Positions 35,965 through 60,440 of a DNA stretch of 64,000 nucleotides are shown in pieces. A program made the translations under genes and the position numbers. The stretch lies in the NCBI RefSeq assembly GCF_014905135.1, contig NZ_CP041406.1, positions 1,054,001 through 1,118,000 on the forward strand. The letters are read 5' to 3'. This stretch comes from Sulfurimonas paralvinellae (lineage in GTDB: Bacteria; Campylobacterota; Campylobacteria; Campylobacterales; Sulfurimonadaceae). The notes under the pieces were generated by a model. It ran no database searches. It was not told the DNA's origin and worked only from the letters and a program-made list of their open reading frames with translations. Positions within the stretch are counted from its first letter, which is position 1; each line of letters starts with the position of its first letter.

Positions 35965-35977
35965 TTTTTATTTCTCC

Positions 35978-37470: not shown

Positions 37471-37473
37471 TTT

Positions 37474-40681: not shown

Positions 40682-40709
40682 ATTCACTCTCTTTTATTCA
40701 CGTTATACA

Positions 40710-40752
40710 AGTATAGCAAATTTATTCCAATATATCAATATATCTTGATATA
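40710..40752 (-). promoter_or_regulatory. arsR promoter with ArsR operator
   Basis: On the minus strand TTGATA (40733-40738) and TATACT (40710-40715) are 17 bases apart, 29 bases before the arsR start. The operator TATATCAA-N6-TTGATATA (40731-40752) has perfect eight-base arms and covers the -35. Binding would exclude polymerase. The same core and geometry recur at 43966-44014. Confidence 0.75.
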
Positions 40753-40761
40753 TAATATTTC

Positions 40762-41652
40762 TTATGCGATGATATTTTTATTATCATCTCTCTCATATTC
40801 ACACTGAAAAGTCGTGTGTTCAATGTCAAAACTGTCATGCAGCTTTTTCTCGAGTCTCTCAATAACGGCATTTGACACGGATAGCGGCACATCTTCGTTA
40901 AAATCCAAATGTGCTTCTAAATGGATATGATTATCATCAAGTTTCCATACGTGAATATGATGTACATTCTTAATCTCAGACTCTTCTTCAATAGTTTTGG
41001 CGATCTCTTCTATATCGATCCCTTCCGGAGTGAACTGCATCAGTATCGCACTGCTCTCACGAACAAGACCAAAAGATGCCCAGATAAGATAGAGTGCTAT
41101 TAAGGCAGAAACCACAGGATCGATCCAAAAAAGTCCGAAGTAGTACATCAAAACACCACCGCCGACAACAGCCACACTTGTCATAACATCTGTTAAAAGA
41201 TGCAGATAGGCCGCTTTTATGTTCATATTGTCATGAGCGTCATCTTTGACAAGTAGTACACTGGCAGCATTAAGTACAATACTTAAGGTTCCAAGCCCGA
41301 TAACCCAGACAGAATTAATCGGCTCTGGATGATAAAACTTGTGAAAAGCTTCTATGACAAGAAAGATAGCAATTCCAATAAGCACCGAAGCATTGAAAAG
41401 TGCCGCCAATATCTCGGCACGTTTATAACCAAATGTCTTTGACTCATTATTTGGACGGGCTGCCAAACGGTTGGCAAAGTAAGCGATAAAAAGTGCCAAT
41501 ACATCACTGAAATTATGCATTGCATCGCTCAAAAGAGCCAGTGATCCTGACATTATTCCTCCCACAATCTGTGAAAGTGTAATGATGATGTTCAAAACGA
41601 TAGTGATAAAAAGATTTTTACCACTTACATCGTGATGGTGATGTTCACTCAT
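40762..41652 (-). CDS. Cation diffusion facilitator, ZitB/CzcD-like
   Basis: 296 residues, six membrane helices, exports divalent cations (Zn2+, perhaps Cd2+ or Co2+) against protons. The His-rich N-terminus HHHHD and the conserved HNFSD and HLLTDVMTSVAVVGG (HD pair in helix 5) bind metal. The C-terminal cytoplasmic domain has HIHVWKLDDNHIHLEAH, as in CDF ferredoxin-like domains. Last gene of the run from the permease at 43941; its stop lies just upstream of the arsR promoter. Confidence 0.93.
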   Translation of the reverse strand: MSEHHHHDVSGKNLFITIVLNIIITLSQIVGGIMSGSLALLSDAMHNFSDVLALFIAYFANRLAARPNNESKTFGYKRAEILAALFNASVLIGIAIFLVIEAFHKFYHPEPINSVWVIGLGTLSIVLNAASVLLVKDDAHDNMNIKAAYLHLLTDVMTSVAVVGGGVLMYYFGLFWIDPVVSALIALYLIWASFGLVRESSAILMQFTPEGIDIEEIAKTIEEESEIKNVHHIHVWKLDDNHIHLEAHLDFNEDVPLSVSNAVIERLEKKLHDSFDIEHTTFQCEYERDDNKNIIA

Positions 41653-41661
41653 ATTTTTTCC

Positions 41662-42030
41662 TTAATTAAAAAATTTTTTTATTTCTTGAGCTTCCAAGAT
41701 ACCGACATGTCTATAGATTTCATTGCCTTGGCTATCTACGACAATCTGTGTCGGAATCATCTGAACACGCAGTCTGTAAGCCGCTTCCCGCTCTTTATGA
41801 ACATTGACAAAATAGATAGGATACTCGGGATGTTTCTGTTTTATCACATAAAGTTTTCTACCCATTACCTGACAGCTGCGACAGGTATCCGAGCCAACTT
41901 CAATAAATGTTCTCTTATGCTTACCTATCTGCTGCAAAACTTCTGCAAAAGGAGTCTCGCGCAACATTGGTTCCTGTCCAAAAAGATTGAACACCATAAA
42001 AAGTGTTACTAACAATATTTTTTTCATCAC
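41662..42030 (-). CDS. Exported thioredoxin-like protein
   Basis: 122 residues with a signal peptide (about 1-18, ending NLFGQ) and a short thioredoxin fold. The redox site is CRSC in VGSDTCRSCQVMGRK; the cis-Pro is in VQMIPTQIV. It would act in the periplasm, receiving electrons from the CcdA-like protein encoded just upstream (six bases). Function is inferred as a thiol reductase linked to the ArsR-controlled operon. Confidence 0.85.
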   Translation of the reverse strand: MMKKILLVTLFMVFNLFGQEPMLRETPFAEVLQQIGKHKRTFIEVGSDTCRSCQVMGRKLYVIKQKHPEYPIYFVNVHKEREAAYRLRVQMIPTQIVVDSQGNEIYRHVGILEAQEIKKFFN

Positions 42031-42036
42031 TTATCC

Positions 42037-42738
42037 TTAAATTTGTAAATATGCTTCATAGAAGAAATAGACTCCAAAAAGCAGTAAAAGAAGTGCAAAA
42101 CTCTTATTTATATAATTTGAAAATTTTGTCACTCTTTTGTTTGACACAATACTTTGCGTAAATCCGACTGAAACACCTGCTAAAAGTAGTAAAAGCGAAT
42201 GCCCAAGAGAAAAACTTAGTATCAAACCATACGCATACAAATATCCACTGCTGCCTGCCGTCGTTATGATGGCAAAAAGCGGTGCCGATGCACAAGGCGT
42301 ACTCACAAGTCCAAAAATCAGACCGATCATCAAGCCGCCAAAGAGTCTATACTCGATAAAGTGCTCGATGATAGAAGATTTATCCAACTCACCCAAATAT
42401 CCAAGCGCATACAGAGCGATCAAGATACTGACAACACCTGCAATGACATACGCCCACATCGGCGCAACAGAAAAAAAGCCGCCGAATTTTGCAACAATGA
42501 AACCAAGCACAGAAAAACTAAGTGCCACGCCAAGTGCAAAAAGAGCTGTAAAAGCATAAGTATAAAGCACTTTTTTATGCCCGCTCAAATCTTTGTTCAC
42601 AGCCACTGCACTTGCAACAAGCAGAGGGACAGCAACAAGTGAACACGGTGCTACAGCGGTAATACTCCCTGCTCCAAATGCTCCTAAAAAGGCTAAATAT
42701 GAGTGAGCATTAAGAAGTGCTAACAGCGTTTCCTGCAC
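42037..42738 (-). CDS. CcdA/DsbD-type thiol electron carrier
   Basis: 233 residues with six membrane helices. Two conserved Pro-Cys sites, TAVAPCSLVAVPLL (helix 1) and VSTPCASAPLFA (helix 4), form the membrane disulfide that moves electrons from cytoplasmic thioredoxin to the periplasm. It lies between two thioredoxin-like genes (one exported, one cytoplasmic), so the three form a complete relay. One base separates it from the redox-active disulfide gene. Confidence 0.92.
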   Translation of the reverse strand: MQETLLALLNAHSYLAFLGAFGAGSITAVAPCSLVAVPLLVASAVAVNKDLSGHKKVLYTYAFTALFALGVALSFSVLGFIVAKFGGFFSVAPMWAYVIAGVVSILIALYALGYLGELDKSSIIEHFIEYRLFGGLMIGLIFGLVSTPCASAPLFAIITTAGSSGYLYAYGLILSFSLGHSLLLLLAGVSVGFTQSIVSNKRVTKFSNYINKSFALLLLLFGVYFFYEAYLQI

Positions 42739-42739
42739 T

Positions 42740-42982
42740 TTATTTTTGTGCTTCTTCTATCATCTTGACCACTTCATCGACTGTTGGTACTTTACCTGTT
42801 GATTTAACAACACCGTCAATCACAAGTCCGGGAGTGCTCACTACATTGTACTCCATAATTTTCATGATATCTTCCACTTTTTCCACCTGATGAAAACCAC
42901 CGACTTTTGCAACCGCCTGTTTCACAACTTCTTCAAGTGTTTTGCATTTTGCACAACCTGTTCCTAAAATTTCTATTTTCAT
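42740..42982 (-). CDS. Small thioredoxin-family protein (redox-active disulfide protein 2 type)
   Basis: 80 residues, glutaredoxin-size, with CAKC near the N-terminus (ILGTGCAKCKTL) and the cis-Pro in VVSTPGLVIDG. It belongs to the TM0996/MTH895 thioredoxin group often encoded next to ArsP-like permeases and CcdA. It is cytoplasmic (no signal peptide) and sits eight bases from the permease gene. Confidence 0.9.
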   Translation of the reverse strand: MKIEILGTGCAKCKTLEEVVKQAVAKVGGFHQVEKVEDIMKIMEYNVVSTPGLVIDGVVKSTGKVPTVDEVVKMIEEAQK

Positions 42983-42990
42983 TTTTTCTC

Positions 42991-43941
42991 CTATTGTAAT
43001 ATAAAGTTAAAGAGATAACCTATACAGATTATCCCAAATCCGACAATTCCAAAGAATATGCCTATGAGTCTGACATGCAGAATTTTTTTAAGAATCATTG
43101 CTTCTGGAAGGCTGAGTGCAGTAATTGCCATCATAAAGCTAAGTGCCGTTCCAAGAAGCATGCCTTTTTCTGTCAACACTTCAACAAGCGGCATAACACC
43201 CGCTGCATTGGAGTACATTGGAATACCAAGAATAACAGCTAGAGGTACGCCGTACCAGTTATCGCCGCCGGCATATTTGGCTATAAAATCCGCAGGTACA
43301 TATCCGTGAATCAATGCACCAATGCCAACACCGACAAGAACATAAAGCCAGATCTGTTTAAAGATGTCATAGGTATAGTGCCAAGCCTCTTTTGCACGCT
43401 GTTTTTGCGACATCTTCACTTCGCCTACATCTTCAAGCTCTCCTTCCATCGGTTTTACATCGAGTAAGATGTACTTTTCTAAGTTCATCTTACCTATAAC
43501 AAAACCTCCAATTATCGCGACAAGCAGTCCAAAACCAATGTAAATTGCCGTAATCTTCCATCCAAAGAGCGTAAAAAGCAAGGCAATAGCTACCTCATTG
43601 TTCATAGGTGAACTTATAAGAAATGAAAAGGTCACACCTAATGGAATTCTTGCCTGAATAAAGCCCAAAAACAATGGAATGGCACTGCATGAACAAAATG
43701 GTGTGATGATACCGAAAAATGCTGCGAGAATATTTCCGTATAGTTCCGATTTTCCCTGTAGGTGAGCTCTTACATATTCGGTATTGAAGTGTGTTCGCAG
43801 GTATGAGACGACAAAAATAATGACAATAAGCAAAAAAAGAATCTTTACCGTGTCATAGATAAAAAAGTTGATAGTGTCATTGAGCCTGCCGCTCAATCCT
43901 AACATATCAACCGTAAAATAGTTAACTAATGACTGCCACAT
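42991..43941 (-). CDS. Permease of the ArsP/DUF318 family
   Basis: 316 residues, about eight to nine membrane helices. The Cys-rich signature TPFCSCSAIPLFLGF and FLISSPMNNEVAIALLF mark this family, which includes ArsP (trivalent organoarsenical efflux). First gene of the five-gene ArsR-type operon. Its start is 25 bases from the -10 box of a perfect TTGATA-N17-TATAAT promoter. Arsenic efflux is likely but the true substrate is not shown. Confidence 0.85.
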   Translation of the reverse strand: MWQSLVNYFTVDMLGLSGRLNDTINFFIYDTVKILFLLIVIIFVVSYLRTHFNTEYVRAHLQGKSELYGNILAAFFGIITPFCSCSAIPLFLGFIQARIPLGVTFSFLISSPMNNEVAIALLFTLFGWKITAIYIGFGLLVAIIGGFVIGKMNLEKYILLDVKPMEGELEDVGEVKMSQKQRAKEAWHYTYDIFKQIWLYVLVGVGIGALIHGYVPADFIAKYAGGDNWYGVPLAVILGIPMYSNAAGVMPLVEVLTEKGMLLGTALSFMMAITALSLPEAMILKKILHVRLIGIFFGIVGFGIICIGYLFNFILQ

Positions 43942-43965: not shown

Positions 43966-44014
43966 ATTATAACAAGATTTTATTAATATATCAATATATA
44001 TTGATATATTAATA
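43966..44014 (-). promoter_or_regulatory. Permease operon promoter with ArsR-type operator
   Basis: On the minus strand TTGATA (43989-43994) and TATAAT (43966-43971) are exactly 17 bases apart. A perfect palindrome with 14-base arms, TATTAATATATCAA-N6-TTGATATATTAATA (43981-44014), covers the -35 box. The core matches the arsR operator at 40731-40752 with the same overlap, so one ArsR should repress both. Confidence 0.8.
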
Positions 44015-44026
44015 AAGAAAAATTCA

Positions 44027-44332
44027 CTAAATGAGCTTTTCAAATGCCTCTGTTATCGCTTCCGCCTGCGTGAGACCTTCTAAAAATATCTCACCGTCCA
44101 AAACCAAAGTCGGATCTTTTGTTATACCCTGTTCTATAGCTTTTTGCGGGTCATGTTCAAAAGAAAAACGCACACGAATCGGTAAGTGCTTAATAGCACA
44201 ACTTAAGCGTTTAGAAAACTTTGCACAATCGAGTCTACTTCCGTAAATAAGAGCTTCATGGAGTGGATACTCTGCGTGAGAGGCATTGAGAACCTCCCCA
44301 GCACTCATTTCGTGACAAACATTATCTTGCAT
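44027..44332 (-). CDS. Small thioredoxin-fold-like protein
   Basis: About 101 residues from ATG 44332 (MQDNVCHEMSAGEVL), with AAGGAG seven bases upstream. A longer frame extends upstream but overlaps the previous gene deeply and lacks such a signal. The core GSRLDCAKFSKRLSCAI and KDPTLVLDGEIFLEG (cis-Pro-like DPTLV) suggest a thioredoxin-like fold with no CxxC; cysteines are spaced farther apart. Function is unknown. It is the last gene of the run from 51143. Confidence 0.65.
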   Translation of the reverse strand: MQDNVCHEMSAGEVLNASHAEYPLHEALIYGSRLDCAKFSKRLSCAIKHLPIRVRFSFEHDPQKAIEQGITKDPTLVLDGEIFLEGLTQAEAITEAFEKLI

Positions 44333-44654
44333 TTTGCATCTCCTTAGATATGATATGAAGGTAATCATGCATGTCAAAGTAGCCTATCATAGCTTCAAAC
44401 ATCATTCTCCAGCATAACTCCATACATACAAACATCGTTATCATAACAAACCAAAAAACTTTTTTCTCAGTCACAGAGAATGAATTGTAAAAATCATACA
44501 ATTTTTCATATCCCGCTTTAACTAATGCAAAATGTTCCATCAAAAAAGATCTGAAAAAGTACATAAAAGCAGGCATAAGCACAGCTCCGATATAATAAAA
44601 GAAAATCAAAATATCTTGCGTAATAAAATTGTTAAAAGTTAAAAATTCCCACAT
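44322..44654 (-). CDS. Small membrane protein of unknown function
   Basis: 110 residues with two predicted membrane helices (about 12-40 and 65-90); FLTFNNFITQDILIFFYYIG at the start faintly resembles DUF4282. The stop overlaps the thioredoxin-like gene start by 11 bases. It follows the globin gene by 30 bases, so it is probably part of the same transcript. I do not propose a function. Confidence 0.65.
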   Translation of the reverse strand: MWEFLTFNNFITQDILIFFYYIGAVLMPAFMYFFRSFLMEHFALVKAGYEKLYDFYNSFSVTEKKVFWFVMITMFVCMELCWRMMFEAMIGYFDMHDYLHIISKEMQNAR

Positions 44655-44684
44655 AATTCAGTTCCTTAGCAAATAATAACACAA

Positions 44685-45818
44685 CTATTTATTATATAAA
44701 AAAATAGTCATTTTAATGATTTCACACAATAAATCAACTGATTCAAGAACATAAATACGATTTGATATTTCTTTGACTGAAACACCTACATAAATTATTT
44801 TTTCTTCATCTCCTGGCAGCATGATGTGTTTCACTATATCATAAGAAGAAGTTTCAGGTTTGTCATCAGAGATAAGCATCTTTTCTATTGCCCAGGCAAA
44901 ATTTTCCTGTAAAAGTTTTGTAATATTTTGTTTGACAATTTTTTCATCAGTTTTTTGGTTGTCCCGTATTGTTCTGTTATAAATAACATCCGTTATAGAA
45001 CGAATAACATTCAGTGAACTGTTTAAACTTAAAAATGAAGTGATCTGCAGATCGTTCAAAGACCTTTTGATATAGTTTTTCAAAGTCAATGCCTCTTTCT
45101 GGCGTTTTTCGCCTTCTTGTGCATTTTCGATCAAAGTGCAGTATCTTTTTACAGTCGCTATATCTAATCCTACCGCTTTAAGTATATCTCGGTATGGATC
45201 GATCTTTTGCAAATGTCTTTCAAATTTCTCTTTTGCATTTATATTGATCTCGTCACTTTTACCTTCTATAAGAGCATCTATATTTTTAGAGCAGTGCATA
45301 TAAGCGGCATTAAATTCATTCATAGCCAAAGAGAGATTATTTGCACGGTAAGGGGAATTTTCAATATTCTTTTGTTCAAAATACTCTTCCACCATGATTG
45401 TCTCTGCAACTTTTAAATATTTTATCACAAGCTTCAAATCACTCATAAGTGATACATCTCTTGCTGCTTGTGCAAGAATCAGTTTTGAAAGCAGATGGTA
45501 TCCGTACGACATATGAACAGGGTCCAGCCTGATGTGGTAGTGAACTATTCCTACTTTGGCAATTTTTTCATACAAAGTTTCATCAAAAGGCTCACTCAGT
45601 AAAGAGATGATGAATGCAATCTGTTTTTTCTTTAAGAGATCAATTTTATTTACAGGTATAAAAACTGAAAATTCAGGTTGTGTCAACAACTCTTCATAAA
45701 ATTTGTCCATGATTTCATCGACATATTTTGCTATTTTTTCAATAGCCTCTTTCCGCTTTGGCAAATCTTTTGGATCTAAATCATATATCTCTTGTATTAA
45801 TCTAATTTTATTTTTCAT
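44685..45818 (-). CDS. Globin-coupled-sensor-like protein with unknown output domain
   Basis: 377 residues. The N-terminal 160 residues look like a protoglobin/globin-coupled sensor: the segment KVGIVHYHIRLDPVHMSYGYHL places a proximal haem His at 93 (in VHxxIxLxP), and helices fill the globin fold. The C-terminal 200 residues are mostly helical, ending in a beta-like stretch (KIIYVGVSVKEISNRIY). There is no GGDEF, methyl-accepting or kinase motif, so the output is unknown. It is one base from the cNBD gene. It may sense O2, NO or sulfide. Confidence 0.65.
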   Translation of the reverse strand: MKNKIRLIQEIYDLDPKDLPKRKEAIEKIAKYVDEIMDKFYEELLTQPEFSVFIPVNKIDLLKKKQIAFIISLLSEPFDETLYEKIAKVGIVHYHIRLDPVHMSYGYHLLSKLILAQAARDVSLMSDLKLVIKYLKVAETIMVEEYFEQKNIENSPYRANNLSLAMNEFNAAYMHCSKNIDALIEGKSDEININAKEKFERHLQKIDPYRDILKAVGLDIATVKRYCTLIENAQEGEKRQKEALTLKNYIKRSLNDLQITSFLSLNSSLNVIRSITDVIYNRTIRDNQKTDEKIVKQNITKLLQENFAWAIEKMLISDDKPETSSYDIVKHIMLPGDEEKIIYVGVSVKEISNRIYVLESVDLLCEIIKMTIFLYNK

Positions 45819-45819
45819 A

Positions 45820-46269
45820 TTAAAGCACCTCTTCTAATGTTTTATACATCTCTGTTAATTTCTTGTCACTGTTTCGTAAAAATCTCATAAGCATATTCAT
45901 ACTTCTTTGCATTATTTTCACACCGATTTGTGGATTTTTTTGGCAAAATTCAAAAAATTCCTTGTCACTTATTTCCGCTATTGTACAGGAAGTTTTTGCT
46001 TTAATTGTTGTTAAGCTCATACCACTGTCTATAAGAGAAGAAAAAGAAAAAAATATATCATCATCTTTTGTAGCTTCTATAACCTCGATATCCTCACTTG
46101 AAGAGTTTTTAATAACAGCTATTTTCCCTGAAAGCAGATAAAACCCGCTTTTATATTTTTCTCCTTCACTGCGGATCAAATCATCTTTGTTTATCTCACG
46201 GTTTGTAAACATTTGTAAAAACTCCTGTTTCTCACCCGTATCTAAATCATTGAAAATTTCTTTCTCCAT
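45820..46269 (-). CDS. Cyclic-nucleotide-binding-domain protein without DNA-binding domain
   Basis: 149 residues that form a single Crp-type cNBD beta roll (SEGEKYKSGFYLLSGKIAVIK) and a C-terminal helix. It has no helix-turn-helix. In the phosphate-binding cassette the usual Gly-Glu...Arg is replaced (FFSFSSLIDSGMSLTTIKA), so cyclic nucleotide binding is doubtful. It lies three bases after the K+-channel gene and one before the globin gene. The order suggests a separate regulatory subunit for the channel; this is inference. Confidence 0.8.
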   Translation of the reverse strand: MEKEIFNDLDTGEKQEFLQMFTNREINKDDLIRSEGEKYKSGFYLLSGKIAVIKNSSSEDIEVIEATKDDDIFFSFSSLIDSGMSLTTIKAKTSCTIAEISDKEFFEFCQKNPQIGVKIMQRSMNMLMRFLRNSDKKLTEMYKTLEEVL

Positions 46270-46272
46270 TGC

Positions 46273-47373
46273 TTACCTTTTCATCAAAATTATTGCACTA
46301 AATTCTGTTATTGTAAAATCATCATCAGGATTGATGATAACATTCTTTTGGATTTCACTGTTTTTTATCTTATTTAAAAGTGTTTTATATTTTTGGGCAT
46401 CTTTACCAAAGTGCATATTATTCAAAATAATCTTTTTCAACTCTTTGGCTGTTACATCATTTTCAATAACACCAAGTAAGATCTCTCTTTTGTCTAACAA
46501 TGCATCAAAAGCTTCCTTATATGTTTTACCTGTAAAAGGATGTTTTTGCTGAATTTTAAAGTTGGAAGTTCTTAGCAGTTTTCGTATAACCTTTGACATC
46601 CCCGGTTCAGTAATTGATTTTGAAAGTAAAAAACGGTTATACTCTTCACTCATCACTATTTCATCGCATTTGCTTTTTAAAAGATAATTTTCATATTGCG
46701 GATTGATAATCTCTGCAATGATATATACTTCATTATTTAATGAACGGATGATGATTACAGTTTCCAATACCTTTGCATCCGAATACTCATCATGTGCATT
46801 AAGAATCATAACTCTGTCTGCTTTTTCAATATTTGCGCGTTTTAAAACTTCTTCTTCATTATAATTTCCCTGTACAAACTTTAGATCATATTCATTGAGT
46901 ACATCTTCAAGTTCCGGAGGAAAATCATGATAAACGATGACGATATTTTTTCCATATTTCTCTACAAAACCTGCGAGAATATCTTTTCTAGGTGTTTTAA
47001 ACCCGCATATTACAAGGTGATGATTTAGATTTTCTGTCATAAGATACCTCTTTTTAGAAAATATTTTTTTTGTAACCAACTGTGTTGTAAGCTGTGCAGT
47101 GAGTACTGCAACAGCGACAACGCCGCCAAAAATTGCCAACATTGCCATCAGGCGTCCAAATTCACTGTGAGGAACAACATCCCCATAACCGACAGTGGAC
47201 ACAGTCACCACCATATACCAAAAAGCATCAAAAAAATCTTTAAAGTTCTGAGGTTCAAGATATGGTAGGACAATAGCAATAACAACAACAAATACAGAAT
47301 ATACAAACAGATAAAAATTAGCTAACGAAAATTCAAATTTTTGCATCAATCTCTCTGTTTTTTCACGTATCAT
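46273..47373 (-). CDS. Two-helix potassium channel with RCK/TrkA-N domains
   Basis: 366 residues. Two membrane helices flank the pore, whose selectivity filter reads TVGYGDVVP (Thr60-Pro68). A cytoplasmic RCK part follows with Rossmann-like LVICGFKTPRKD and VMILNAHDEYSD, then a weaker second lobe to residue 366 (TrkA-C-like, TITEFSAIILMKR). This is an MthK/Kch-type K+ channel gated by ligands or redox. It sits 29 bases after the SQR-like gene in the run from 51143. Confidence 0.9.
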   Translation of the reverse strand: MIREKTERLMQKFEFSLANFYLFVYSVFVVVIAIVLPYLEPQNFKDFFDAFWYMVVTVSTVGYGDVVPHSEFGRLMAMLAIFGGVVAVAVLTAQLTTQLVTKKIFSKKRYLMTENLNHHLVICGFKTPRKDILAGFVEKYGKNIVIVYHDFPPELEDVLNEYDLKFVQGNYNEEEVLKRANIEKADRVMILNAHDEYSDAKVLETVIIIRSLNNEVYIIAEIINPQYENYLLKSKCDEIVMSEEYNRFLLSKSITEPGMSKVIRKLLRTSNFKIQQKHPFTGKTYKEAFDALLDKREILLGVIENDVTAKELKKIILNNMHFGKDAQKYKTLLNKIKNSEIQKNVIINPDDDFTITEFSAIILMKR

Positions 47374-47402
47374 GTAATATGCTCACACATTCATATTTTG
47401 AG

Positions 47403-48623
47403 TTATAAAAATTTTACCAGTTTATCTGTCATTTCCAATGCAAAATCCGGTGGCATATGACCTTTATTAAAGTAAAGATAGTTATCAAATCCCCATTTCA
47501 TCATTTTTGAAATGGGTGAATAAAAGGCTATATCTCTTTTTCCGCCATATAAAACATCTGATGCAATTAGTGTCGCTTCATGTCCACCCATATTCATAAT
47601 ACAAAAAACTTCCAATTCGTGCGCTGGGATTTCCACATCTTCGCCAAGCTCTTTAAGTAAACTAGCAGCTGCTATTGCACCTTGTATGATAGCAACATGA
47701 CCAAGTTTAGGTTGTGCTAATGCTGCAATATCACCGGCTGCAAAAATATTGTCAAAGTCTAAATGGCGCATTGTTTTATCTGTCGGGATAAAACCTTTTT
47801 CATCGCCGATATTTGAATCTTTTAAAACTTGTGGAGCAGCATACGGAGGAATAATAATTGCCAGATCACAATCCATTTTCGTACCGTCTTCAAAAGCTAC
47901 AAAATCTTTTCCTATTTCAGTCAGTACTTTATCATTTGAGAGATTCATCTGATACTCTGTCATAAACTTACCAATGGCCTCACGCGGAGTATCGCCTACA
48001 TCTTCAAAAAATACTTCACCCGGAGTGAAAACATTTATGCTGTAATCTTCACCTCTTTTTTTGTCTTTGTCTTTTTCAAGATAATAATCCAGCATAAACA
48101 TAATCTCACCAATAGGACCTTCACAAGGGGCACTAAGCGGCGGTGCATCAACACGTGTTCCCCATGTACTTTTTGCAGCACCTGTAACTACTTTGCCACC
48201 TTCGAAAGTTTTTACTCTCTCCCAAAGTCTTTGTGCCTGCTCATCATCACAGACAGAATAACCATACTCTCTAAAACCTTTTATAGCATCATAATCTTTG
48301 ACAGCACCAAGTGTCACCATAAGGTAATCATATTCGACATTTTCACTATTTTTCAGCATTAACATATTGTTTTTTTCATCAATATGTGTTACTTCATCTT
48401 GAATAAATTCAGCTCCACGACCCTCAAGAGTATGCTTAAGTTCAACAAGTGAATGCGATAATGGCGCACCCTCGAATGCCACCTCAGGCAATGAAGGTTT
48501 TAAAAGTGAATGAGAGCGTGAGTCAATAACTGTAACATCTATTTTTTTACCTATAAGGTGACGAATTTTGTAAAATATATGCAACCCTGCAAATCCTGCA
48601 CCTAAAATAACTACTTTTTTCAT
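47403..48623 (-). CDS. Sulfide:quinone oxidoreductase-like flavoprotein
   Basis: 406 residues with the FAD motif VVILGAGFAGLHIFYKI and a second motif FDNIFAAGDIAALAQPKLG. Three cysteines fall near the SQR active-site positions: Cys125 (YSVCDDE), Cys167 (APCEGP) and Cys341 (VFCIMNMGG), which is the SQR pattern rather than NADH dehydrogenase II. It should oxidise sulfide to polysulfide and reduce quinone at the membrane face. Nearby rhodaneses and the TSUP exporter fit this use. NDH-2 remains an alternative. Confidence 0.8.
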   Translation of the reverse strand: MKKVVILGAGFAGLHIFYKIRHLIGKKIDVTVIDSRSHSLLKPSLPEVAFEGAPLSHSLVELKHTLEGRGAEFIQDEVTHIDEKNNMLMLKNSENVEYDYLMVTLGAVKDYDAIKGFREYGYSVCDDEQAQRLWERVKTFEGGKVVTGAAKSTWGTRVDAPPLSAPCEGPIGEIMFMLDYYLEKDKDKKRGEDYSINVFTPGEVFFEDVGDTPREAIGKFMTEYQMNLSNDKVLTEIGKDFVAFEDGTKMDCDLAIIIPPYAAPQVLKDSNIGDEKGFIPTDKTMRHLDFDNIFAAGDIAALAQPKLGHVAIIQGAIAAASLLKELGEDVEIPAHELEVFCIMNMGGHEATLIASDVLYGGKRDIAFYSPISKMMKWGFDNYLYFNKGHMPPDFALEMTDKLVKFL

Positions 48624-48646
48624 AATATATTCCTTTTTTTCCTATT

Positions 48647-49027
48647 TTATTTATCTTCATGTTCTTTGATAATTTTAAGAACATCTTCTGCTGCACCGAC
48701 GATACCACTAAACGCAGCATGTCTCACTATTTTTACCACTGAGAGAAGTTCTTCTTTAGAAACACCGGCATTTAATGCAGCATATGTTAAAGTATCAATG
48801 CATGACTGATCTTTCATTCCAAGTGCGGCAGAAAAATAGACCAAAAGAGAGGTTTTTGGATCAAGTGCATTTGTATCACTCTGCATACTCATTTTAGAGC
48901 TCATTGCCTGTTCAACAAGCATTTCCGGCGCTACACCCTGTGCTAGACGAATTGAATTAGGAACACCCTCATGTCCAAACTTTTCTTCCATTTGTGCTAA
49001 AACTTGTTCTGGCGTTGGCATTTGCAT
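48647..49027 (-). CDS. Carboxymuconolactone decarboxylase-like (AhpD-fold) protein
   Basis: 126 residues, helical AhpD-like fold. DPKTSLLVYFSAALGMKDQS then CIDTLTYAALNAGVSKEEL is the CMD pattern. The paired cysteines of AhpD are reduced to one (Cys in QSCID), so classic disulfide peroxidase reductase activity is unlikely. AAGGAG precedes the ATG. It follows a long hairpin (49076-49101) and leads to the SQR gene 23 bases on. Confidence 0.85.
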   Translation of the reverse strand: MQMPTPEQVLAQMEEKFGHEGVPNSIRLAQGVAPEMLVEQAMSSKMSMQSDTNALDPKTSLLVYFSAALGMKDQSCIDTLTYAALNAGVSKEELLSVVKIVRHAAFSGIVGAAEDVLKIIKEHEDK

Positions 49028-49075
49028 GACAAACTCCTTGTAAAATTAGATTGAGACAGGTGAAATCCTATCTTC

Positions 49076-49101
49076 AAAACACTCTGGAAGCAGAGTGTTT
49101 T
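49076..49101 (-). terminator. Perfect 10-bp hairpin inside the sulfur operon
   Basis: AAAACACTCT-GGAAGC-AGAGTGTTTT is a perfect ten-base stem with a six-base loop in the 84-base gap between the small-protein pair and the CMD gene. Its arms end in A4 and T4, so it can act as a factor-independent terminator in either direction or as a stability element. It may set lower expression for the downstream SQR, channel and globin genes. Confidence 0.6.
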
Positions 49102-49111
49102 AAGCATAGTT

Positions 49112-49357
49112 TTACTTCTCTTTCTGCGCACATTTTTTTGCACGTATCGTTTCCAAGTTTTTAACTTTTTTATCCAATTCAAGCAACATATCATATTGCT
49201 CGCTTCCACTGAGATGATTCTTTTTCATAGATTTCTCTCTTTCTTCTATGGTTTCTTTCCATTCATCAAGAACTTCATCAGGTATAGTACAATCAAGTGC
49301 AGATTTTTTTTCATGATCAATAAGCCAATCAGCTATTCTAGCCATTACATGTAACAT
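49112..49357 (-). CDS. Small conserved protein, tandem paralogue 2
   Basis: 81 residues from ATG 49357 (MLHVMARIADWLIDHEK), which aligns with its neighbour's MLHILKAIATKMLENEK; an ATG three codons earlier sits on the AAAAGG signal. It shares with the next gene SALDCTIPDEVLDEW, then ETIEEREK, then SEQYDMLLELDKKV and ends with RAKKCAQ. Two cysteines are conserved (ALDC, AKKC). Helical, highly charged, cytoplasmic, function unknown. Confidence 0.75.
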   Translation of the reverse strand: MLHVMARIADWLIDHEKKSALDCTIPDEVLDEWKETIEEREKSMKKNHLSGSEQYDMLLELDKKVKNLETIRAKKCAQKEK

Positions 49358-49372
49358 TGTAACCATCCTTTT

Positions 49373-49615
49373 CTAATCAGATTTCGTGCATTTTTTCGCG
49401 CGAATCTCTTTGATTTGTCTAACCTCTTTTTCCACACCTAACAGCATATCATACTGCTCGGTGTCAGTTTTATGATGTTCCTGCATTCTTTTTTTTCGCT
49501 CTTCTATAGTATCTAACCATTCATCTACTACTTCATCTGAAATACTACAGTCTAAGGCATCCTTTTTCTCATTCTCAAGCATTTTTGTAGCTATTGCTTT
49601 CAATATATGTAACAT
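49373..49615 (-). CDS. Small conserved protein, tandem paralogue 1
   Basis: 80 residues. Nearly the same pattern as the following gene: ALDCSISDEVVDEWLDTIEE, TEQYDMLLGVEKEV and AKKC at the end. The tandem duplication with conserved Asp-Cys and Lys-Lys-Cys suggests a thiol or metal role, for example as a sulfur-carrier or homodimeric binding protein. I recognise no family. It starts two bases after the TSUP gene stop and is part of the run from 51143. Confidence 0.75.
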   Translation of the reverse strand: MLHILKAIATKMLENEKKDALDCSISDEVVDEWLDTIEERKKRMQEHHKTDTEQYDMLLGVEKEVRQIKEIRAKKCTKSD

Positions 49616-49617
49616 CT

Positions 49618-50370
49618 TTACGCTCCTATAAGCTTATAAATCATTTTTGCTGCTAAAAGCAGTAATACAACGGCAATAAGCTTTTTCACCTGTGAAGGCG
49701 TTAAACGGTAGTGCATTATTCTGTCACCCAAATAACCACCGATTATGGCTGCTACTGTCACGACACCTAAAAGCATCCAGTCCATATCTACAAAACTCAG
49801 ATAAGTCGCAAATGCACCAAGCGTTGAAAACGGTATAACGAAACTAATGGCATAGGCAGCTTTTTTCGCATCAAAACCCAAAAGAATCAAAAGCGGCATA
49901 ATAAGAGAGCCGCCGCCGACACCGATAGTCCCAGAGATAAGTCCTACACTGCCGCCAATAACATATAAAATCCATGCTTTGTCATATACAACTTTTTGTT
50001 CTCTGTTGGAAAACAGCAGTAAAAAAGCACTAATAACAATAAAAGCGACCAATATCCATTCAACTATCTCTTTATTGACATATTGACTTGCATAAGCACC
50101 CAAAGGTGTTGCAATCATAATAGAAACAATAAGAGGAATAGCAAATTTAATATCTAAAACACCACGAAAGAAATTCATAATTGATGCTGTAATTGTAGAT
50201 GCAGAATTTATGAACAGTCCTATAGCTTTTGCAAGATTTAAAGACATATCCATCATCGAAAAAATAGGAACAAGCCCTATGGCAGAGCCGACTCCACCCA
50301 TTGAAAAAAGAGTAGAAAGTCCCAATGTCAAAAAGAAATATATTGTATAATGTAATAATTCAGGACCCAT
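49618..50370 (-). CDS. TSUP (TauE/SafE) family anion exporter
   Basis: 250 residues with about eight membrane helices. The repeat glycine motifs GGVGSAIGLVPIFSMM and GTIGVGGGSLIMPLLILLG mark the TSUP family, which moves sulfite, sulfoacetate, thiosulfate or similar anions. Its neighbours (two rhodaneses, SQR) point to sulfite or another sulfur oxyanion. It starts 11 bases after the first rhodanese gene stop. Confidence 0.92.
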   Translation of the reverse strand: MGPELLHYTIYFFLTLGLSTLFSMGGVGSAIGLVPIFSMMDMSLNLAKAIGLFINSASTITASIMNFFRGVLDIKFAIPLIVSIMIATPLGAYASQYVNKEIVEWILVAFIVISAFLLLFSNREQKVVYDKAWILYVIGGSVGLISGTIGVGGGSLIMPLLILLGFDAKKAAYAISFVIPFSTLGAFATYLSFVDMDWMLLGVVTVAAIIGGYLGDRIMHYRLTPSQVKKLIAVVLLLLAAKMIYKLIGA

Positions 50371-50381
50371 CCATTACCCTT

Positions 50382-50744
50382 TTATAGATTGATTTTTTTT
50401 GCTTTGCCGCCTTTAAGTGCGTCCATCAGGCCTAACAGCCCACCTACAAGATACTTCACTTCAAAACCTTCACTTGCAAGATAGATTCGCGCCATGTTCG
50501 AGCGATCCGTTTTTGGACAAGCAACGACTATTAATTTGTCTTTTGGCAGTTCGTTCAGACGTTCCGGCAGCTCATTTGCCGGAATTTTCAAACCGAAATT
50601 CACTTGCCACACAGCTGTCTCAAAAGGTACACGAACATCAACGAGTTCACATTTTCCTTCATTATATAAAGAGACAAAATCTTCAATCTCTATACGCATA
50701 TTGCTCATTTCACTTGGTACTATTTTTCTCGCTAATTCTTGCAT
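50382..50744 (-). CDS. Rhodanese-like sulfurtransferase
   Basis: 120 residues, single rhodanese domain with active Cys76 in VVACPKTDRSNMA. The short N-terminal extension (MQELARKIVPSEMS) precedes the domain, which has KCELVDVRVPFE. It carries sulfane sulfur on Cys. It is a paralogue of the next gene three bases upstream. Possible roles are persulfide delivery from SQR or thiosulfate handling. Confidence 0.9.
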   Translation of the reverse strand: MQELARKIVPSEMSNMRIEIEDFVSLYNEGKCELVDVRVPFETAVWQVNFGLKIPANELPERLNELPKDKLIVVACPKTDRSNMARIYLASEGFEVKYLVGGLLGLMDALKGGKAKKINL

Positions 50745-50747
50745 GAT

Positions 50748-51143
50748 TTATCCTTTAAGTTTGTTCATATAATCCCGTGCTTTATCACCACGCAGACCTT
50801 CAATAACTCCTAACATCCCATCTGTGAGATATTTTGCGTCAAAGCCCTGCAGTTTTAAATAGAGTCGTGCTATTTCAGCACGGTCATAGTGAGGACACAT
50901 TGTTACTATGGTTTTGTTTTTATCTATCTCATCAAGTCTGTCCGGCAGCTCATTAAGCGGTATATGATCGCCAAAACCCAAGCTCCATGCTTCATGCTCT
51001 TCATTGAAACGAATATCTATGATTTGAATCTCGCCTTTTGTATACTGTTCAAACAACTCATCACGCTTTATTTTCATATCCTGTCGTTCTTGATAATCAA
51101 AACTTCTAAGATATTTATCAAACTCTTCTATTTTACTTTTCAT
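50748..51143 (-). CDS. Rhodanese-like sulfurtransferase, first gene of the sulfur run
   Basis: 131 residues with active Cys83 in IVTMCPHYDRAEIA and the rhodanese strand IQIIDIRFNEEHEAW. A Lys/Glu-rich 25-residue N-terminal extension precedes the domain. The start has AAAGG upstream. It is the promoter-proximal gene of the run, under the TetR-type operator at 51162-51179. The pair of rhodaneses probably act on a persulfide made by the SQR-like protein. Confidence 0.9.
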   Translation of the reverse strand: MKSKIEEFDKYLRSFDYQERQDMKIKRDELFEQYTKGEIQIIDIRFNEEHEAWSLGFGDHIPLNELPDRLDEIDKNKTIVTMCPHYDRAEIARLYLKLQGFDAKYLTDGMLGVIEGLRGDKARDYMNKLKG

Positions 51144-51157
51144 AATTGATCCTTTGT

Positions 51158-51179
51158 ATTATAACTAACTATTTAGTTA
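51158..51179 (-). promoter_or_regulatory. TetR-type operator over the sulfur-run promoter
   Basis: On the minus strand TATAAT (51158-51163) lies 15 bases before the ATG, with no strong -35. An 18-base palindrome, TAACTAACTATTTAGTTA (51162-51179, plus strand), with perfect seven-base arms overlaps the -10 box. It differs at one position from TAACTAACTAGTTAGTTA, and a related site lies at 60393-60410 before tetR, so the TetR at 59749 may repress this promoter. Confidence 0.7.
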
Positions 51180-51208
51180 ATTATATAACCCTTTGACTAA
51201 AAATAAAC

Positions 51209-52177
51209 TTAGAATTTATAGCTATATAAAAAACCTCCAAAATAATTATTACTATTATCTTCTTTTATTGCCGGTGTCTGCCCCTGATAATAAAAACTTA
51301 GCTTGTGATTATCATAATATACATCAGCAGCAATAAATCCGGTCATTTTAAAATTTTCTTTTTCTGTTTGATAACCCTCGTCTTTTGCTTCATTAAGAAT
51401 ATAATTATAAGCGACACCAACCCCACTGATGCCCGTATCAAAAGAGTAGCCAAAGCCTTTATGGTTTTTAACACCTACCAATGTTGGCTCTTCACGCAGA
51501 CATGGATAGTGTTCATTAAAATTTCTAACATAATTGCGACCTACACGAAATGCAGTTCCCACTAAGACTGAAGTATTAAAATTACCAAGAGAAACAGCGG
51601 CATTGTTAAACCAGTCGGCATCTAAATCATCACCAAGTTTACCTTCCCATGAAATTTCTCCGCAATTAACCAAAAGATTAGCGGTAAGCTGTGTGCCTAG
51701 CTGTGTATTCCAACCTGCAGGTTTGTCATTTCCTATGATTGCGTGAAAGGTGTCTTGTGTACTCTCAGCTAAAGATGCAGGCCCTACAATACCCAAATCA
51801 AATGCGTATTCTATAAAACTGTTGCTGTCTGATTGGATTAAATACGTTGAGAGTGCCAAATACCCTGCATAAGGGATATCATTGTATTGAGGAGTTACAA
51901 TTGTTGTATCATCAGGTGTAATTATTATCTGTGTTAAACTTACACCCGCATTATAGTTTTTACTCTTATCAAGCTCTATTGAAAATTTATGAAGAGTATC
52001 TATCAAAAAATCAGTATAACCATTTTGCTCATTATCTTCCAACCATGCAAAGGTAGCACCATTTGTAAAGTGCCCGTCCTTACCTACAAAAAAATCATTA
52101 TCAACGGCAAATGCAATCTGATCTGCGTTAAGAGAGATTGTACTCAATAAGAACAAAGACATTACTTGTCTCTTCAT
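51209..52177 (-). CDS. lpxR: LpxR-family lipid A deacylase
   Basis: 322 residues with a signal peptide (about 1-18, ending LNADQ) and an outer-membrane barrel. LpxR signatures are visible: FAVDNDFFVGKDGHFTNGAT near the N-terminus, IVGPASLAESTQDTFHAIIG with the active His, and GWNTQLGTQL. The enzyme removes a 3'-acyloxyacyl chain from lipid A at the cell surface. The C-terminal aromatic (YSYKF) is the usual barrel end. It sits upstream of the sulfur run and has no obvious co-operon partner except the porin 115 bases upstream. Confidence 0.88.
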   Translation of the reverse strand: MKRQVMSLFLLSTISLNADQIAFAVDNDFFVGKDGHFTNGATFAWLEDNEQNGYTDFLIDTLHKFSIELDKSKNYNAGVSLTQIIITPDDTTIVTPQYNDIPYAGYLALSTYLIQSDSNSFIEYAFDLGIVGPASLAESTQDTFHAIIGNDKPAGWNTQLGTQLTANLLVNCGEISWEGKLGDDLDADWFNNAAVSLGNFNTSVLVGTAFRVGRNYVRNFNEHYPCLREEPTLVGVKNHKGFGYSFDTGISGVGVAYNYILNEAKDEGYQTEKENFKMTGFIAADVYYDNHKLSFYYQGQTPAIKEDNSNNYFGGFLYSYKF

Positions 52178-52292: not shown

Positions 52293-53582
52293 TTAGAGCT
52301 TATATTCAAACTGTAAAAATATATGTTGTGCATTATTGTCTGCAACACTATTTTTCACAAATGCTCCTGCTTTAAAATAGGCATAGATAAAGGAGAGTTT
52401 TATGTTCTTTACAGGCTTATAAAAAAACTCTGCGTCCATTTCATCTCCTAACTTCTTATCGGTGTAACCTGGTTTATTTTTATATCCATAATATGCCCAC
52501 TTTCCATCTGCATCAGCCAGACTAAAATCATGATAGGTGAATTTTGTATCTATTTTACTATTTGGGTACAAATAAAGAGCAATTTGATTATCCTGCATAT
52601 TCGACCAGCTCATCAAATCCATTCGCCCGTAGTGACTGCCGTCCGTTGAGCCAAAAGGCGTAGTGAAATCTTTGCCGGCATAGACTCTTCCAAGCACTAT
52701 TTTTGGTTTGAGTAGTGTTTTTTTAAATTGATAACCGCCTTTGAGAACATAAGCAAAATCATTGATTTTTTTGCTGCCATCTTTGCCTGATTCATTTACA
52801 TAGGTTGCATCATAAGTAAAACTGTTATAATCTTTTTCATATAAACGCGCACCTGTATAGCTAAGATACTCATAACTTTTATGCCCTGAGCTCATCTTTG
52901 GAATTAAATTATGTTTGTAAACATAAAAAGGCTCAACTGCTCCCTTTTGTGTCGTTTTAAAATGGCTGTAAACTACAGCACCTTCATAGAGATGCTTCTC
53001 AAACATACTAAATTTATTAGGATCTTTCGTTCTTGTTTGTCCGTACCAGGCATCTATGAAATTGTCATGAAACTTGTAAGAGAATCTCCCTGCATCCCAA
53101 AGCCAGCCAATAGTATTACCCCATTTTCCAGGGCCTATAATACGATTGTCACCATAAGCAATATCCTGACGCCCCACTTTAAAAGAGAGATTATCTATAC
53201 CAAGCGATTTAAAAGTAAGAGAAGCGTCATAAAGTTCAAAATGTTCATGGTAAGGATTCATGGCATAAACATAAGGGGTATTTTTATTTTTTATGAAATC
53301 AAGATCAGTTAAAGAACTGCCCCACTCTCTTGCGTCATACATAATGAGTGAGTAGTCTATATTGGAAGTTTTATACTCTCCTCCAAGCATAATACGTTGG
53401 AGCAAGATAGTATCATCACTCTCACCTACTTCATCACCTTTGGCATTTATAGAATCATTTCCATACGCTTTTTTGTTAAAGCCATGCCAACTCTCTGCGC
53501 GCTCACGTAAAGAACCTAGTATGTTAAGAGTATCAGCATACACAAAAGATACCAAACTTAATACAAGCAGGATGTATTTCAT
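52293..53582 (-). CDS. Outer-membrane porin, alginate-export family
   Basis: 429 residues with a signal peptide (1-16, ending VYADT) and a beta-barrel ending in FEYKL. LGSLRERAESW, KVGRQDIAYGDNRIIG and WLWDAGRFSYKF are conserved in AlgE/alginate_exp-type porins, which in many bacteria serve as general or substrate-specific channels rather than alginate export. It is nine bases downstream of the DUF4395 gene, which follows the RND operon, so it may be its last gene. LpxR follows after 115 bases. Confidence 0.85.
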   Translation of the reverse strand: MKYILLVLSLVSFVYADTLNILGSLRERAESWHGFNKKAYGNDSINAKGDEVGESDDTILLQRIMLGGEYKTSNIDYSLIMYDAREWGSSLTDLDFIKNKNTPYVYAMNPYHEHFELYDASLTFKSLGIDNLSFKVGRQDIAYGDNRIIGPGKWGNTIGWLWDAGRFSYKFHDNFIDAWYGQTRTKDPNKFSMFEKHLYEGAVVYSHFKTTQKGAVEPFYVYKHNLIPKMSSGHKSYEYLSYTGARLYEKDYNSFTYDATYVNESGKDGSKKINDFAYVLKGGYQFKKTLLKPKIVLGRVYAGKDFTTPFGSTDGSHYGRMDLMSWSNMQDNQIALYLYPNSKIDTKFTYHDFSLADADGKWAYYGYKNKPGYTDKKLGDEMDAEFFYKPVKNIKLSFIYAYFKAGAFVKNSVADNNAQHIFLQFEYKL

Positions 53583-53591
53583 AATTAACTT

Positions 53592-54311
53592 TTAAAAATC
53601 ATCCGCTTCAAACTCGGCATCAGCTTTGGCATCTTCTATGCGCTGCAACTCTGCATCACTCATCATCAATACTTTCATCTTTTTGACAAACATTGTTTTA
53701 TCCGGCAGTTTTGTAAAGTATGCATAGATTCCATAGACCATTACAACAATGGTTAAAACAGTTATAGCTGCTTGCGCAGGAGTAAACTTCTGCACAGGCT
53801 CTTTGATGTTCATCTCACAGACACCACCCGGGCAGTATTTCGGGTCTTTTCTTTTGATCCAGCCAAATATCTTACAACCTAGACAGATAGAAAATGCCGC
53901 TTCAAAAAAGAGCAGTGCCATACAGATCAAACAGACCAAAACTTTCAGTGGATTTGGCTGAAAATCAATAACAAGATAGTAAAACATAGGCCATGCAAGC
54001 ACCATCCCCAATGCCCAAGCAAAACGTTTTTGTACTGCACCCACATACTCTGGTGTTTGGTTACGGACAAAAAAGCGTCCAAGCAGTAAACTTGGTGCAT
54101 ATCTCGGCTGAATCACCCTTAAAGTAAAATCGATCGCAAAAAATGTAACGAAATACTTTGAAAAAACAGCCGTCCCAAGCATAACACCGTTTACAAGACC
54201 TAAAAAAGCGCCGACAAATAAAATTGCCGCCGCCGCTCTGGCCTCACGCTCATTTAAAACCCGAATGTCATAACTCGGAACCTTTTCACCATATGCAAAA
54301 AATTCATTCAT
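53592..54311 (-). CDS. DUF4395 membrane protein
   Basis: 239 residues, about five membrane helices. The Cys-containing stretch FSICLGCKIFGWIKRKDP then CPGGVCEMN carries two Cys pairs (CLGC, CPGGVC) that may bind metal or cycle as thiols. This family often accompanies thioredoxin-like or rhodanese proteins. The start overlaps the RND stop by one base (TAATG), so it is expressed with the pump. Confidence 0.8.
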   Translation of the reverse strand: MNEFFAYGEKVPSYDIRVLNEREARAAAAILFVGAFLGLVNGVMLGTAVFSKYFVTFFAIDFTLRVIQPRYAPSLLLGRFFVRNQTPEYVGAVQKRFAWALGMVLAWPMFYYLVIDFQPNPLKVLVCLICMALLFFEAAFSICLGCKIFGWIKRKDPKYCPGGVCEMNIKEPVQKFTPAQAAITVLTIVVMVYGIYAYFTKLPDKTMFVKKMKVLMMSDAELQRIEDAKADAEFEADDF

Positions 54312-60392: not shown

Positions 60393-60440
60393 TAAATAAC
60401 TAGTTGGTTAATTATACACAATTTTCTACAAATATATCAA
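60393..60440 (-). promoter_or_regulatory. tetR-RND promoter with TetR-type operator
   Basis: On the minus strand TTGATA (60435-60440) and TATAAT (60411-60416) are 18 bases apart, and the operator TAACCAACTAGTTATTTA (60393-60410) directly follows the -10 box. It has two differences from the ideal TAACTAACTAGTTAGTTA palindrome and is the counterpart of the 51162-51179 site. GGAG for tetR follows. Confidence 0.75.

Follow-up and report, generated by a model that had tools for sequence, protein, structure and literature searches.

A globin-coupled sensor gene behind a potassium channel gene in a TetR-headed putative stress island of Sulfurimonas paralvinellae

In the chromosome of Sulfurimonas paralvinellae (NZ_CP041406.1), twelve closely spaced genes bring rhodaneses, a TSUP permease and a predicted sulfide:quinone oxidoreductase (SQR) together with a K+ channel, a protein with the fold of a cyclic nucleotide-binding domain (cNBD) and a globin sensor. 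What could such a combination do, and do all of its parts belong together? The genes lie in a stretch of 64,000 nucleotides (positions 1,054,001 to 1,118,000, forward strand), which is called the window here and to which coordinates refer unless another genome is named. An earlier note on this DNA proposed a single system, in which sulfide or persulfide stress is detected through haem, K+ flux is altered by the ion channel, and sulfur species undergo oxidation and export. Our analysis points to another arrangement: the run would appear to be part of a TetR-controlled island for envelope efflux and for sulfur, thiol and metal stress, holding a sensor-gated channel module. We would give this reading a probability of roughly 0.4. 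The position of the haem sensor gene behind the K+ channel gene suggests a gas-controlled ion channel. What is new is the trio of haem sensor, cNBD protein and channel, together with the probable TetR regulon.

The channel, the cNBD protein and the sensor

Genes for the channel, the cNBD protein and the sensor follow each other in this order, on one strand and contiguously, at 15 of 15 loci, so that the joining of a globin sensor to a K+ channel, as put forward in the earlier note, holds over five GTDB families (f1, f4, f8, f9, f11) and one named metagenome-assembled genome (MAG), L020, without a family number. These trio loci (window, G073, G057, G028, G030, G035, G220, G247, G288, G295, G302, G434, G215, G312 and L020) are the distinct loci with readable sequence beside the globin gene, after removal of duplicates (L021 = G302, L022 = G288, L023 = G220, L024 = G247, L025 = G434). 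G185, whose contig begins inside the globin gene, was left out, as were G213, G125, G124 and G142, which showed larger kinases or another protein. Two imperfect loci were kept: G215 (globin match to residue 158, open frame of 170 residues, channel split over two contig ends) and G312 (globin match spread over two frames).

The sensor, a protein of 377 residues, was matched by nine genomes of a class sample (n = 150), three of them weakly; full-length relatives with 48–51% identity were present in five genomes beyond the window's own. An order sample (n = 398) contained 15 genomes with matches at E ≤ 1e-20, the own genome included; among these, G213 has an open frame of 783 residues which matches the sensor at positions 1–154 only, and the matches in G185, G215 and G312 are partial or split. 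Eight matches, including the own genome and G213, were found in a phylum sample (n = 298), all from the same order, and a named collection yielded six MAG loci with the sensor (Nitratifractor, two of Nitratiruptor, Campylobacterales, Epsilonproteobacteria and Helicobacteraceae). Since at least 20 other genomes of the window's genus gave no match at E ≤ 1e-20, the distribution is patchy. The K+ channel was detected at 1e-40 in two genomes of a family sample (n = 200), again including the own genome. A plasmid collection queried with the sensor protein returned only seven Azospirillum records, annotated as methyl-accepting chemotaxis proteins (MCPs), with 30% coverage; no plasmid copy of the sensor was found there.

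With Foldseek, the best matches of the globin domain were 5ohf and 5ohe (AfGcHK), at E values of 5e-4 to 1.6e-3 (for 5ohf, E 5.0e-4 and a TM-score by target of 0.74), followed by HemAT (0.015), DosC (0.017) and others with E ≥ 0.015, at a probability of 1.00. For the C-terminus no fold was recognised among the PDB matches at E ≤ 0.001, which were globin domains only, and no fused output domain (MCP, cyclase, kinase or phosphodiesterase) gave a Pfam match in the whole protein. Residues 160–377 match the segment which precedes HisKA in three kinases (5.2e-16, 8.4e-15 and 1.2e-8). By these comparisons the protein belongs to the globin-coupled sensors and has a middle domain but no kinase. His93 aligns with a His of the solved globin-coupled sensors 2w31 and 5ohe which we take to be proximal; Tyr41 falls on the FY of these structures and Gln66 on the distal E11 position, and all three residues are invariant in two alignments (A1 and A2). 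Pocket residues of this His/Tyr/Gln kind are usually linked to the binding of O2 or NO. Haem binding is predicted, and to judge from the pocket the gas would be O2 or NO rather than sulfide.

The selectivity filter TVGYGD is found in 12 of 12 aligned trio channels. The RCK domain of the window's channel also matches MthK (2e-13); its glycine-rich nucleotide motif is not present, and the position which we assume to be that of this motif is filled by CGFKTPR (CGFK-P in the alignment). At 15 of 15 loci the cNBD is encoded by a separate gene and is not fused to the pore. None of the 12 trio cNBD proteins compared has the Glu or the Arg of the phosphate-binding cassette (alignment A3, in which the residue facing the cassette Glu depends on gap placement), and parts of the stretch replacing the cassette residues are invariant among them. 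The stop codon of the cNBD gene and the start codon of the sensor gene nearly touch or overlap in the 12 trio junctions, and in all 12 the last cNBD codons include a purine-rich stretch which resembles a ribosome-binding site for the sensor gene.

Because the trio is strictly kept in an island which is otherwise shuffled (see below), and because its cNBD lacks the nucleotide residues, we propose a three-part device with the sensor acting on the channel; such a device would be the simplest account of both observations. Tentatively, and with somewhat less confidence than in our reading as a whole, a haem sensor made out of the sensory part of a globin histidine kinase could gate the K+ channel directly, via the cNBD protein and without a nucleotide. 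The module, present in some lineages, would consist of an RCK K+ channel, a detached subunit of cNBD fold and a kinase-less globin-coupled sensor. Its haem, held by His93 with Tyr41 and Gln66 on the distal side, would bind O2 or NO; the middle domain would pass the change to the cNBD subunit by direct contact, and this subunit would then open or close the channel. The resulting K+ flux could shift membrane potential and cytoplasmic pH at once, as a protection against electrophiles like that provided by Kef, where K+ release is the fast protective arm; on this the analogy is based. A slower arm would follow from the release of TetR and comprise RND export, sulfur handling by rhodaneses and TSUP, thiol redox reactions and metal export. 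The physical complex, the gating, the direction of K+ flow, the binding of TetR and its ligand are parts of this scheme which we infer. If it is true, bacteria would have a K+ channel gated by a gas, and globin-coupled sensors would gain a further class of output; the perception of a gas would then bear on membrane potential with neither transcription nor a second messenger in between. The cNBD proteins could in that case be arranged as stages of an evolutionary series, starting with one of nucleotide type next to a channel and ending with one reused as an adaptor.

The surrounding island and its regulation

All twelve open reading frames (ORFs) are encoded by the minus strand, from 51143 down to 44027, co-directional and tightly spaced, as the earlier note had it (Table 1). 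The gaps, read 5' to 3', are 3, 11, 2, 6, 84, 23, 29, 3, 1 and 30 bases, followed by an overlap of 11 bases between genes 11 and 12 if gene 12 starts with the ATG at 44332; ten of eleven junctions are gaps of at most 30 bases or overlaps, and the sole long one, of 84 bases, stands between small paralogue B and the CMD gene. The family assignments were confirmed by Pfam, the thioredoxin-like protein being marginal and the small paralogues without a family. As to the twelve genes forming one system, their association is real beyond close relatives, but the run forms the central part of a longer island, with TetR and RND genes at its head; likewise, blocks of its gene order are conserved, but the full order recurs in none of the other mapped loci. 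Several independent promoters with unrelated responses had been named as a point which would speak against a unit; internal regulatory elements do exist, and with the gene order kept in blocks the outcome is mixed. A predicted operator just before gene 1, a hairpin in the 84-base gap and the palindrome at 43988–44007 had escaped the earlier note.

Minus-strand genes extend on both sides of the run, from 60378 down to 34957, and we assign the island to 60378 to about 40762. Upstream of the run are genes for TetR, a TolC protein, a fusion protein, an RND pump, DUF4395 and two outer membrane proteins; downstream, on the same strand, ArsP, Thioredoxin_3, CcdA, a thioredoxin and a cation diffusion facilitator (CDF) follow. 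The Cys motif of rhodanese 1 is CPHYDR, and gene 12 possesses Cys36 and Cys45, not in a CXXC arrangement. Scans of the window with Rfam (gathering threshold) and for tRNAs gave no match.

Table 1. Features of the island in the window, in the direction of transcription; E values refer to Pfam unless stated otherwise.
Feature	Position	Strand	Evidence
19-bp TetR-type operator (predicted) before TetR gene	60393..60411	-	exact pattern match; weight matrix score 20.5
TetR-family regulator, island head	59749..60378	-	TetR_N 1.2e-15
TolC-type outer membrane efflux protein	58477..59748	-	OEP 1.1e-32
Membrane fusion protein	57431..58480	-	HlyD_D23 2.5e-6, 27.4 bits (below cut-off of 30); between TolC and RND genes
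RND efflux pump	54311..57427	-	ACR_tran 1e-165
DUF4395 membrane protein	53592..54311	-	4.8e-24
Alginate_exp-type outer membrane protein	52293..53582	-	1.5e-24
LpxR-type outer membrane protein	51209..52177	-	2.9e-68
19-bp TetR-type operator (predicted) before rhodanese 1	51162..51180	-	top weight matrix site of window, 23.6; identical in G128
Rhodanese 1	50748..51143	-	4.5e-8; Cys83
Rhodanese 2	50382..50744	-	9.9e-7; Cys76 in CPKTDR
TSUP permease	49618..50370	-	TauE 5.4e-39
Small two-Cys protein, paralogue A	49373..49615	-	no family above cut-off; Cys23 and Cys76
Small two-Cys protein, paralogue B	49112..49366	-	no family above cut-off; Cys26 and Cys79
Hairpin in 84-base gap, terminator- or attenuator-like	49074..49103	-	-15.8 kcal/mol, z -4.8
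CMD-fold protein, single Cys (Cys76), no CxxC	48647..49027	-	CMD 1.4e-8
SQR flavoprotein of 3h8i kind (predicted)	47403..48623	-	1.5e-59 to 3h8i
K+ channel, TVGYGD pore and RCK domain	46273..47373	-	Ion_trans_2 1.6e-16, TrkA_N 9e-13
Stand-alone cNBD-fold protein, no helix-turn-helix domain found	45820..46269	-	cNMP_binding 4.4e-9
Purine-rich, ribosome-binding-site-like stretch for globin gene, within cNBD gene end	45826..45834	-	
Globin-coupled sensor, globin and middle domain, no kinase	44685..45818	-	Protoglobin 1.2e-16
DUF4282 membrane protein	44322..44654	-	4.7e-17
Thioredoxin-fold protein, gene 12	44027..44332	-	Thioredoxin_3 8.4e-5, 23.0 bits (cut-off 24.8, marginal)
20-bp palindrome between gene 12 and ArsP unit	43988..44007	.	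exact palindrome
ArsP_1 permease, next unit	42991..43941	-	6.2e-72
Thioredoxin_3 protein	42740..42982	-	8.3e-26
CcdA/DsbD-type membrane protein	42037..42738	-	DsbD_TM 7.2e-13
Thioredoxin-like protein	41662..42030	-	Thioredoxin_2 7.3e-8
CDF cation efflux transporter	40762..41652	-	Cation_efflux 7.8e-51

The island recurs in other families of the Campylobacterota with similar content and shuffled order. Eight trio loci had long flanks (window, G073, G057, G028, G030, G035, G288 as L022 and G220 as L023), and in all eight the genes for TetR, TolC, membrane fusion protein and RND pump stood at the head of the island (in G035, the TetR gene is at 68990). Relatives of the window's TetR protein, of 27–34% identity, head trio islands in other families; the RND pump is 72–76% identical to the trio-island RND proteins where sequence covers them. 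Behind the head were rhodaneses, TSUP, small Cys protein, CMD, CDF, CcdA, thioredoxins and DUF4282, in varying order and incomplete sets; an Alginate_exp-type gene was present in three of the eight (window, G073, G220). In nine of nine trio loci with TSUP on the same stretch the small Cys protein gene followed directly behind it, and in six of these nine the series rhodanese 1, rhodanese 2 and TSUP was unbroken. The small two-Cys paralogues are perhaps sulfur carriers.

A 19-bp palindrome precedes both the TetR gene and rhodanese 1. The pattern, which was written from these two sites themselves, has two exact matches in the 2.08-Mb genome, both in the window; a short form with two mismatches was not above chance in the window (7 versus 6.24). 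A position weight matrix made from TetR sites of other families, although not fully independent of the window, ranked the two sites first and second in the 64 kb (scores in Table 1; best of 20 shuffles 18.0). The matrix used 8 of 17 TetR upstream stretches, with the window and G128 excluded; omitted were the window's own stretch and eight whose best 19-mer scored below 13 against the consensus. Some stretches ended short of the site (L096 shows a good one), three of the eight sites, from one genus, were identical, and the Nitratiruptor-like operators, which look different, lie outside the matrix. G128, a genome of the same genus which was used for neither pattern nor matrix, carries two exact sites and one with a single mismatch (reversed control: 0 at ≤ 2 mismatches). 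The first exact site (413821–413839) immediately precedes the TetR orthologue at 413861 (62% identity), the second rhodanese 1 at 482.6 kb. Since both genes, 68 kb apart, carry the identical site, it is very probable that the TetR regulon includes the unit which begins with rhodanese 1, with binding by TetR as a prediction. Operator-like sites were also seen before rhodanese 1 and a Bax1-I gene in G223 and before the CDF gene in G334; from both genomes the TetR-gene sites are in the matrix and these internal sites are not. The operator makes the island testable through one regulator.

The hairpin in the 84-base gap was more stable than any of 200 shuffles, and its stem is kept in G128. A consensus terminator scan does not list it (9 terminators versus 6.6 in shuffles), and a consensus promoter scan, with 52 sites versus 46.7 in shuffles, was not informative. 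The 20-bp palindrome before the ArsP unit, which we take to be ArsR-operator-like, has one-mismatch copies at 40732–40751 and near 187 kb of the chromosome; the first is upstream of a small helix-turn-helix (HTH)-like gene (40358–40687) beside an ArsC-like gene. The ArsR reading of palindrome and HTH-like gene is our own and not that of a family scan. The segment 39957–40751 comprises the small HTH-like gene, the ArsC-like gene and a palindrome common to the pre-ArsP region. At L096 (G277), an ArsP-type palindrome was seen before rhodanese 1, with the rhodanese unit divergent from the RND unit; a switch of regulator is possible there. In Nitratiruptor SB155-2, according to PMC10092412, the TetR/AcrR gene NIS_RS00380 and a set of permease, thioredoxin and ArsC were up under both Cd and Cu, the former about twofold, and no tag from NIS_RS00385 to RS004 numbers stands in the shared Cd/Cu table. 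Should NIS_RS00380 be the TetR gene of the island, this would lend no support to a joint response of the entire island to the two metals.

SQR of the window matches 3h8i, the type V SQR of Acidianus ambivalens, over residues 1–391, and Cys125, Cys167 and Cys341 align with its three cysteines, which have a redox role. Persulfide-responsive operons of the BigR, CstR or FisR type combine a cognate regulator with a persulfide dioxygenase; the regulator seen in the window is of the TetR family, and for those window proteins that were scanned with Pfam no Lactamase_B (persulfide dioxygenase) domain was reported. In L024, ORF 7421–8341 resembles the Lactamase_B fold by eye. In a comparison of 11 Sulfurimonas genomes (PMC7952632), type V SQR was reported for none but the vent strains, which also had three rhodanese clusters of their own; the SQR is therefore already known. 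The sulfur genes are ordinary in kind. In Sulfurovum indicum, two rhodanese genes with neighbouring tags were up about 2.8-fold during sulfur oxidation (PMC10045233).

Just beyond the island there is a tight run on the same strand with genes for GAPDH, aldolase, an HdeD-like protein and phosphoenolpyruvate synthase (34957–39888). The segment 31423–34955 encodes a proton-efflux-type P-type ATPase followed by two half-length ArsP_1-like proteins. This half-ArsP pair sits inside the island in G028, G030 and G035.

Other explanations and points of doubt

Gene content, contiguity of the trio, absence of the ligand residues and the shared operator can be regarded as established from the sequence. 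They could be accounted for in other ways than by a sensor-gated channel. The trio might have been gained as one piece by a TetR-regulated resistance and sulfur island whose parts act separately, serving against the same stress without direct coupling. The island's distribution agrees with this, as the gene order outside the trio varies freely and components are gained and lost. The TSUP protein had matches in 79 of 396 order genomes (E ≤ 1e-60), from which 20 further loci, some on short contigs, were picked by hand, mostly high-scoring ones outside the trio genomes (L111 belongs to G215, a trio genome, as its second contig, and in G104 there is a channel at another place). They show whole or partial islands, recognition being limited to genes resembling the query set, and the other 18 genomes had no sensor match (1e-20) and no channel match (1e-30) in the order samples. 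Recognised genes in G060, G162, G104 and G289 approximate the series TetR, TolC, membrane fusion protein, RND, rhodanese(s) and TSUP, with CDF in G162 and G289; G128 has CMD and SQR (98% and 91% identical to those of the window), then a short Feo-like ORF (our own call), FeoB and DUF4282, and no trio at that locus. Since islands thus occur without the trio, the latter is, by gene content, an accessory cassette, and the island itself is the more widespread of the two. Mere co-residence would leave unexplained why the trio is contiguous at all 15 loci while the rest shuffles and why the cNBD ligand site is altered in 12 of 12, and we consider it somewhat less likely than the sensor-gated channel.

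The cNBD might, alternatively, still bind cAMP, c-di-GMP, haem or another small ligand and gate the channel, with the globin as a separate gas sensor or scavenger. The fold is kept, and by profile it resembles PKA regulatory subunits, CRP, MloK1 and DNR, the last an example of haem as ligand of a cNBD-type protein. Among 17 channel matches at 1e-30 in the 396 order genomes (own included), four channel-cNBD pairs have no adjacent sensor (L141 in G104, L142 in G163, L143 in G155, L144 in G203); Glu and Arg are both kept in G163 and G155, G203 has Glu only and G104 neither. With both residues absent in every trio cNBD aligned and the replacement stretch partly invariant, a retained binding of such ligands there appears improbable. 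The sulfide scheme of the earlier note, although SQR with three aligned Cys, rhodaneses and TSUP do stand in one run, is very improbable, since the pocket residues are of the O2/NO kind, no evidence was found for sulfide as haem ligand, the genes shared widely among the islands are those for efflux, sulfurtransferases, TSUP and CDF, and SQR, present in three of the eight long-flank trio islands (window, G220, G288) and 4 of the 20 further loci, was rejected as a constant part and is optional, so that sulfide oxidation is no constant theme.

Several points weigh against our own proposal of a sensor-gated channel in a TetR-controlled island. Haem binding, complex and gating are here predicted from the sequence; the model of the sensor is only moderate (predicted local distance difference test, pLDDT, 73; predicted TM-score, pTM, 0.46), and a Pfam globin is above cut-off in just one of the three kinases matched by its C-terminal part, below it in one and absent in one. 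Few genomes have the trio (15 of 398 in the order sample match at 1e-20, counting the own genome and one kinase), eight of its 15 loci belong to one genus (g15), G028 and G030 are close relatives, and the islands without it mean that it may ride along. The contrast between trio and globin-less pairs rests on four pairs and may reflect one evolutionary event; the cNBD of G104 is of trio type although no globin gene lies beside it, so the ligand residues may be lost independently of the globin. Conserved codons account for the ribosome-binding-like stretch, and similar ones are present in globin-less G104. At ≤ 3 mismatches the operator pattern has 18 genome matches versus 11 in the reversed control, and only the exact matches stand out; the matrix sites were picked via a consensus written after the window sites had been seen. 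The hairpin, finally, may cut the trio off from the promoter of the rhodaneses.

A decayed globin gene was looked for behind the cNBD gene of G104, and none was recognised. The conserved end of the cNBD gene was also considered as proof of protein contact or of translational coupling; this was rejected because globin-less pairs keep a similar end, and the same codons could serve both.

Comparison with known systems

To our knowledge, globin-coupled sensors act on enzymes or chemotaxis domains. HemAT, DosC/YddV and AfGcHK share with the present protein a sensor-class globin, the aligned proximal His and distal Tyr, and a middle domain; they differ in that here no MCP, cyclase or kinase output was found, and the sensory half alone stands behind a channel gene. 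In PMC12805357 and PMC8846402 the partners of globin sensors are kinases, MCPs, diguanylate cyclases and phosphodiesterases, and among the open-access papers searched none was found which connects K+ channels with globin-coupled sensors.

RCK K+ channels such as MthK and Kch have the same sequence of TVGYGD pore and TrkA_N/RCK domain, whereas here CGFK-P takes the presumed place of the glycine motif and a cNBD gene follows directly. MloK1, a cyclic-nucleotide-gated K+ channel, likewise combines a K+ pore with the cNBD fold; in the trio this fold is on a separate protein, in which the two nucleotide-holding residues, Glu and Arg, are missing. The type V SQR (3h8i) resembles the window's protein over the aligned residues and in the three Cys, and sulfide:quinone activity is predicted here, within an efflux island. 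TetR-controlled RND operons, e.g., CmeR/CmeABC, begin in the same way, with a TetR gene and operator-like site and then TolC, membrane fusion protein and RND pump; in the window, however, 20 genes for porins, sulfur, thiol and metal functions and the channel follow behind, with a further copy of the site. KefC and KefB, lastly, are comparable as RCK-type K+ systems, the one here being proposed as fast protection in a setting of thiol stress; instead of an antiporter domain it has an ion-channel pore, and the proposed trigger would be a haem sensor and not a glutathione adduct.

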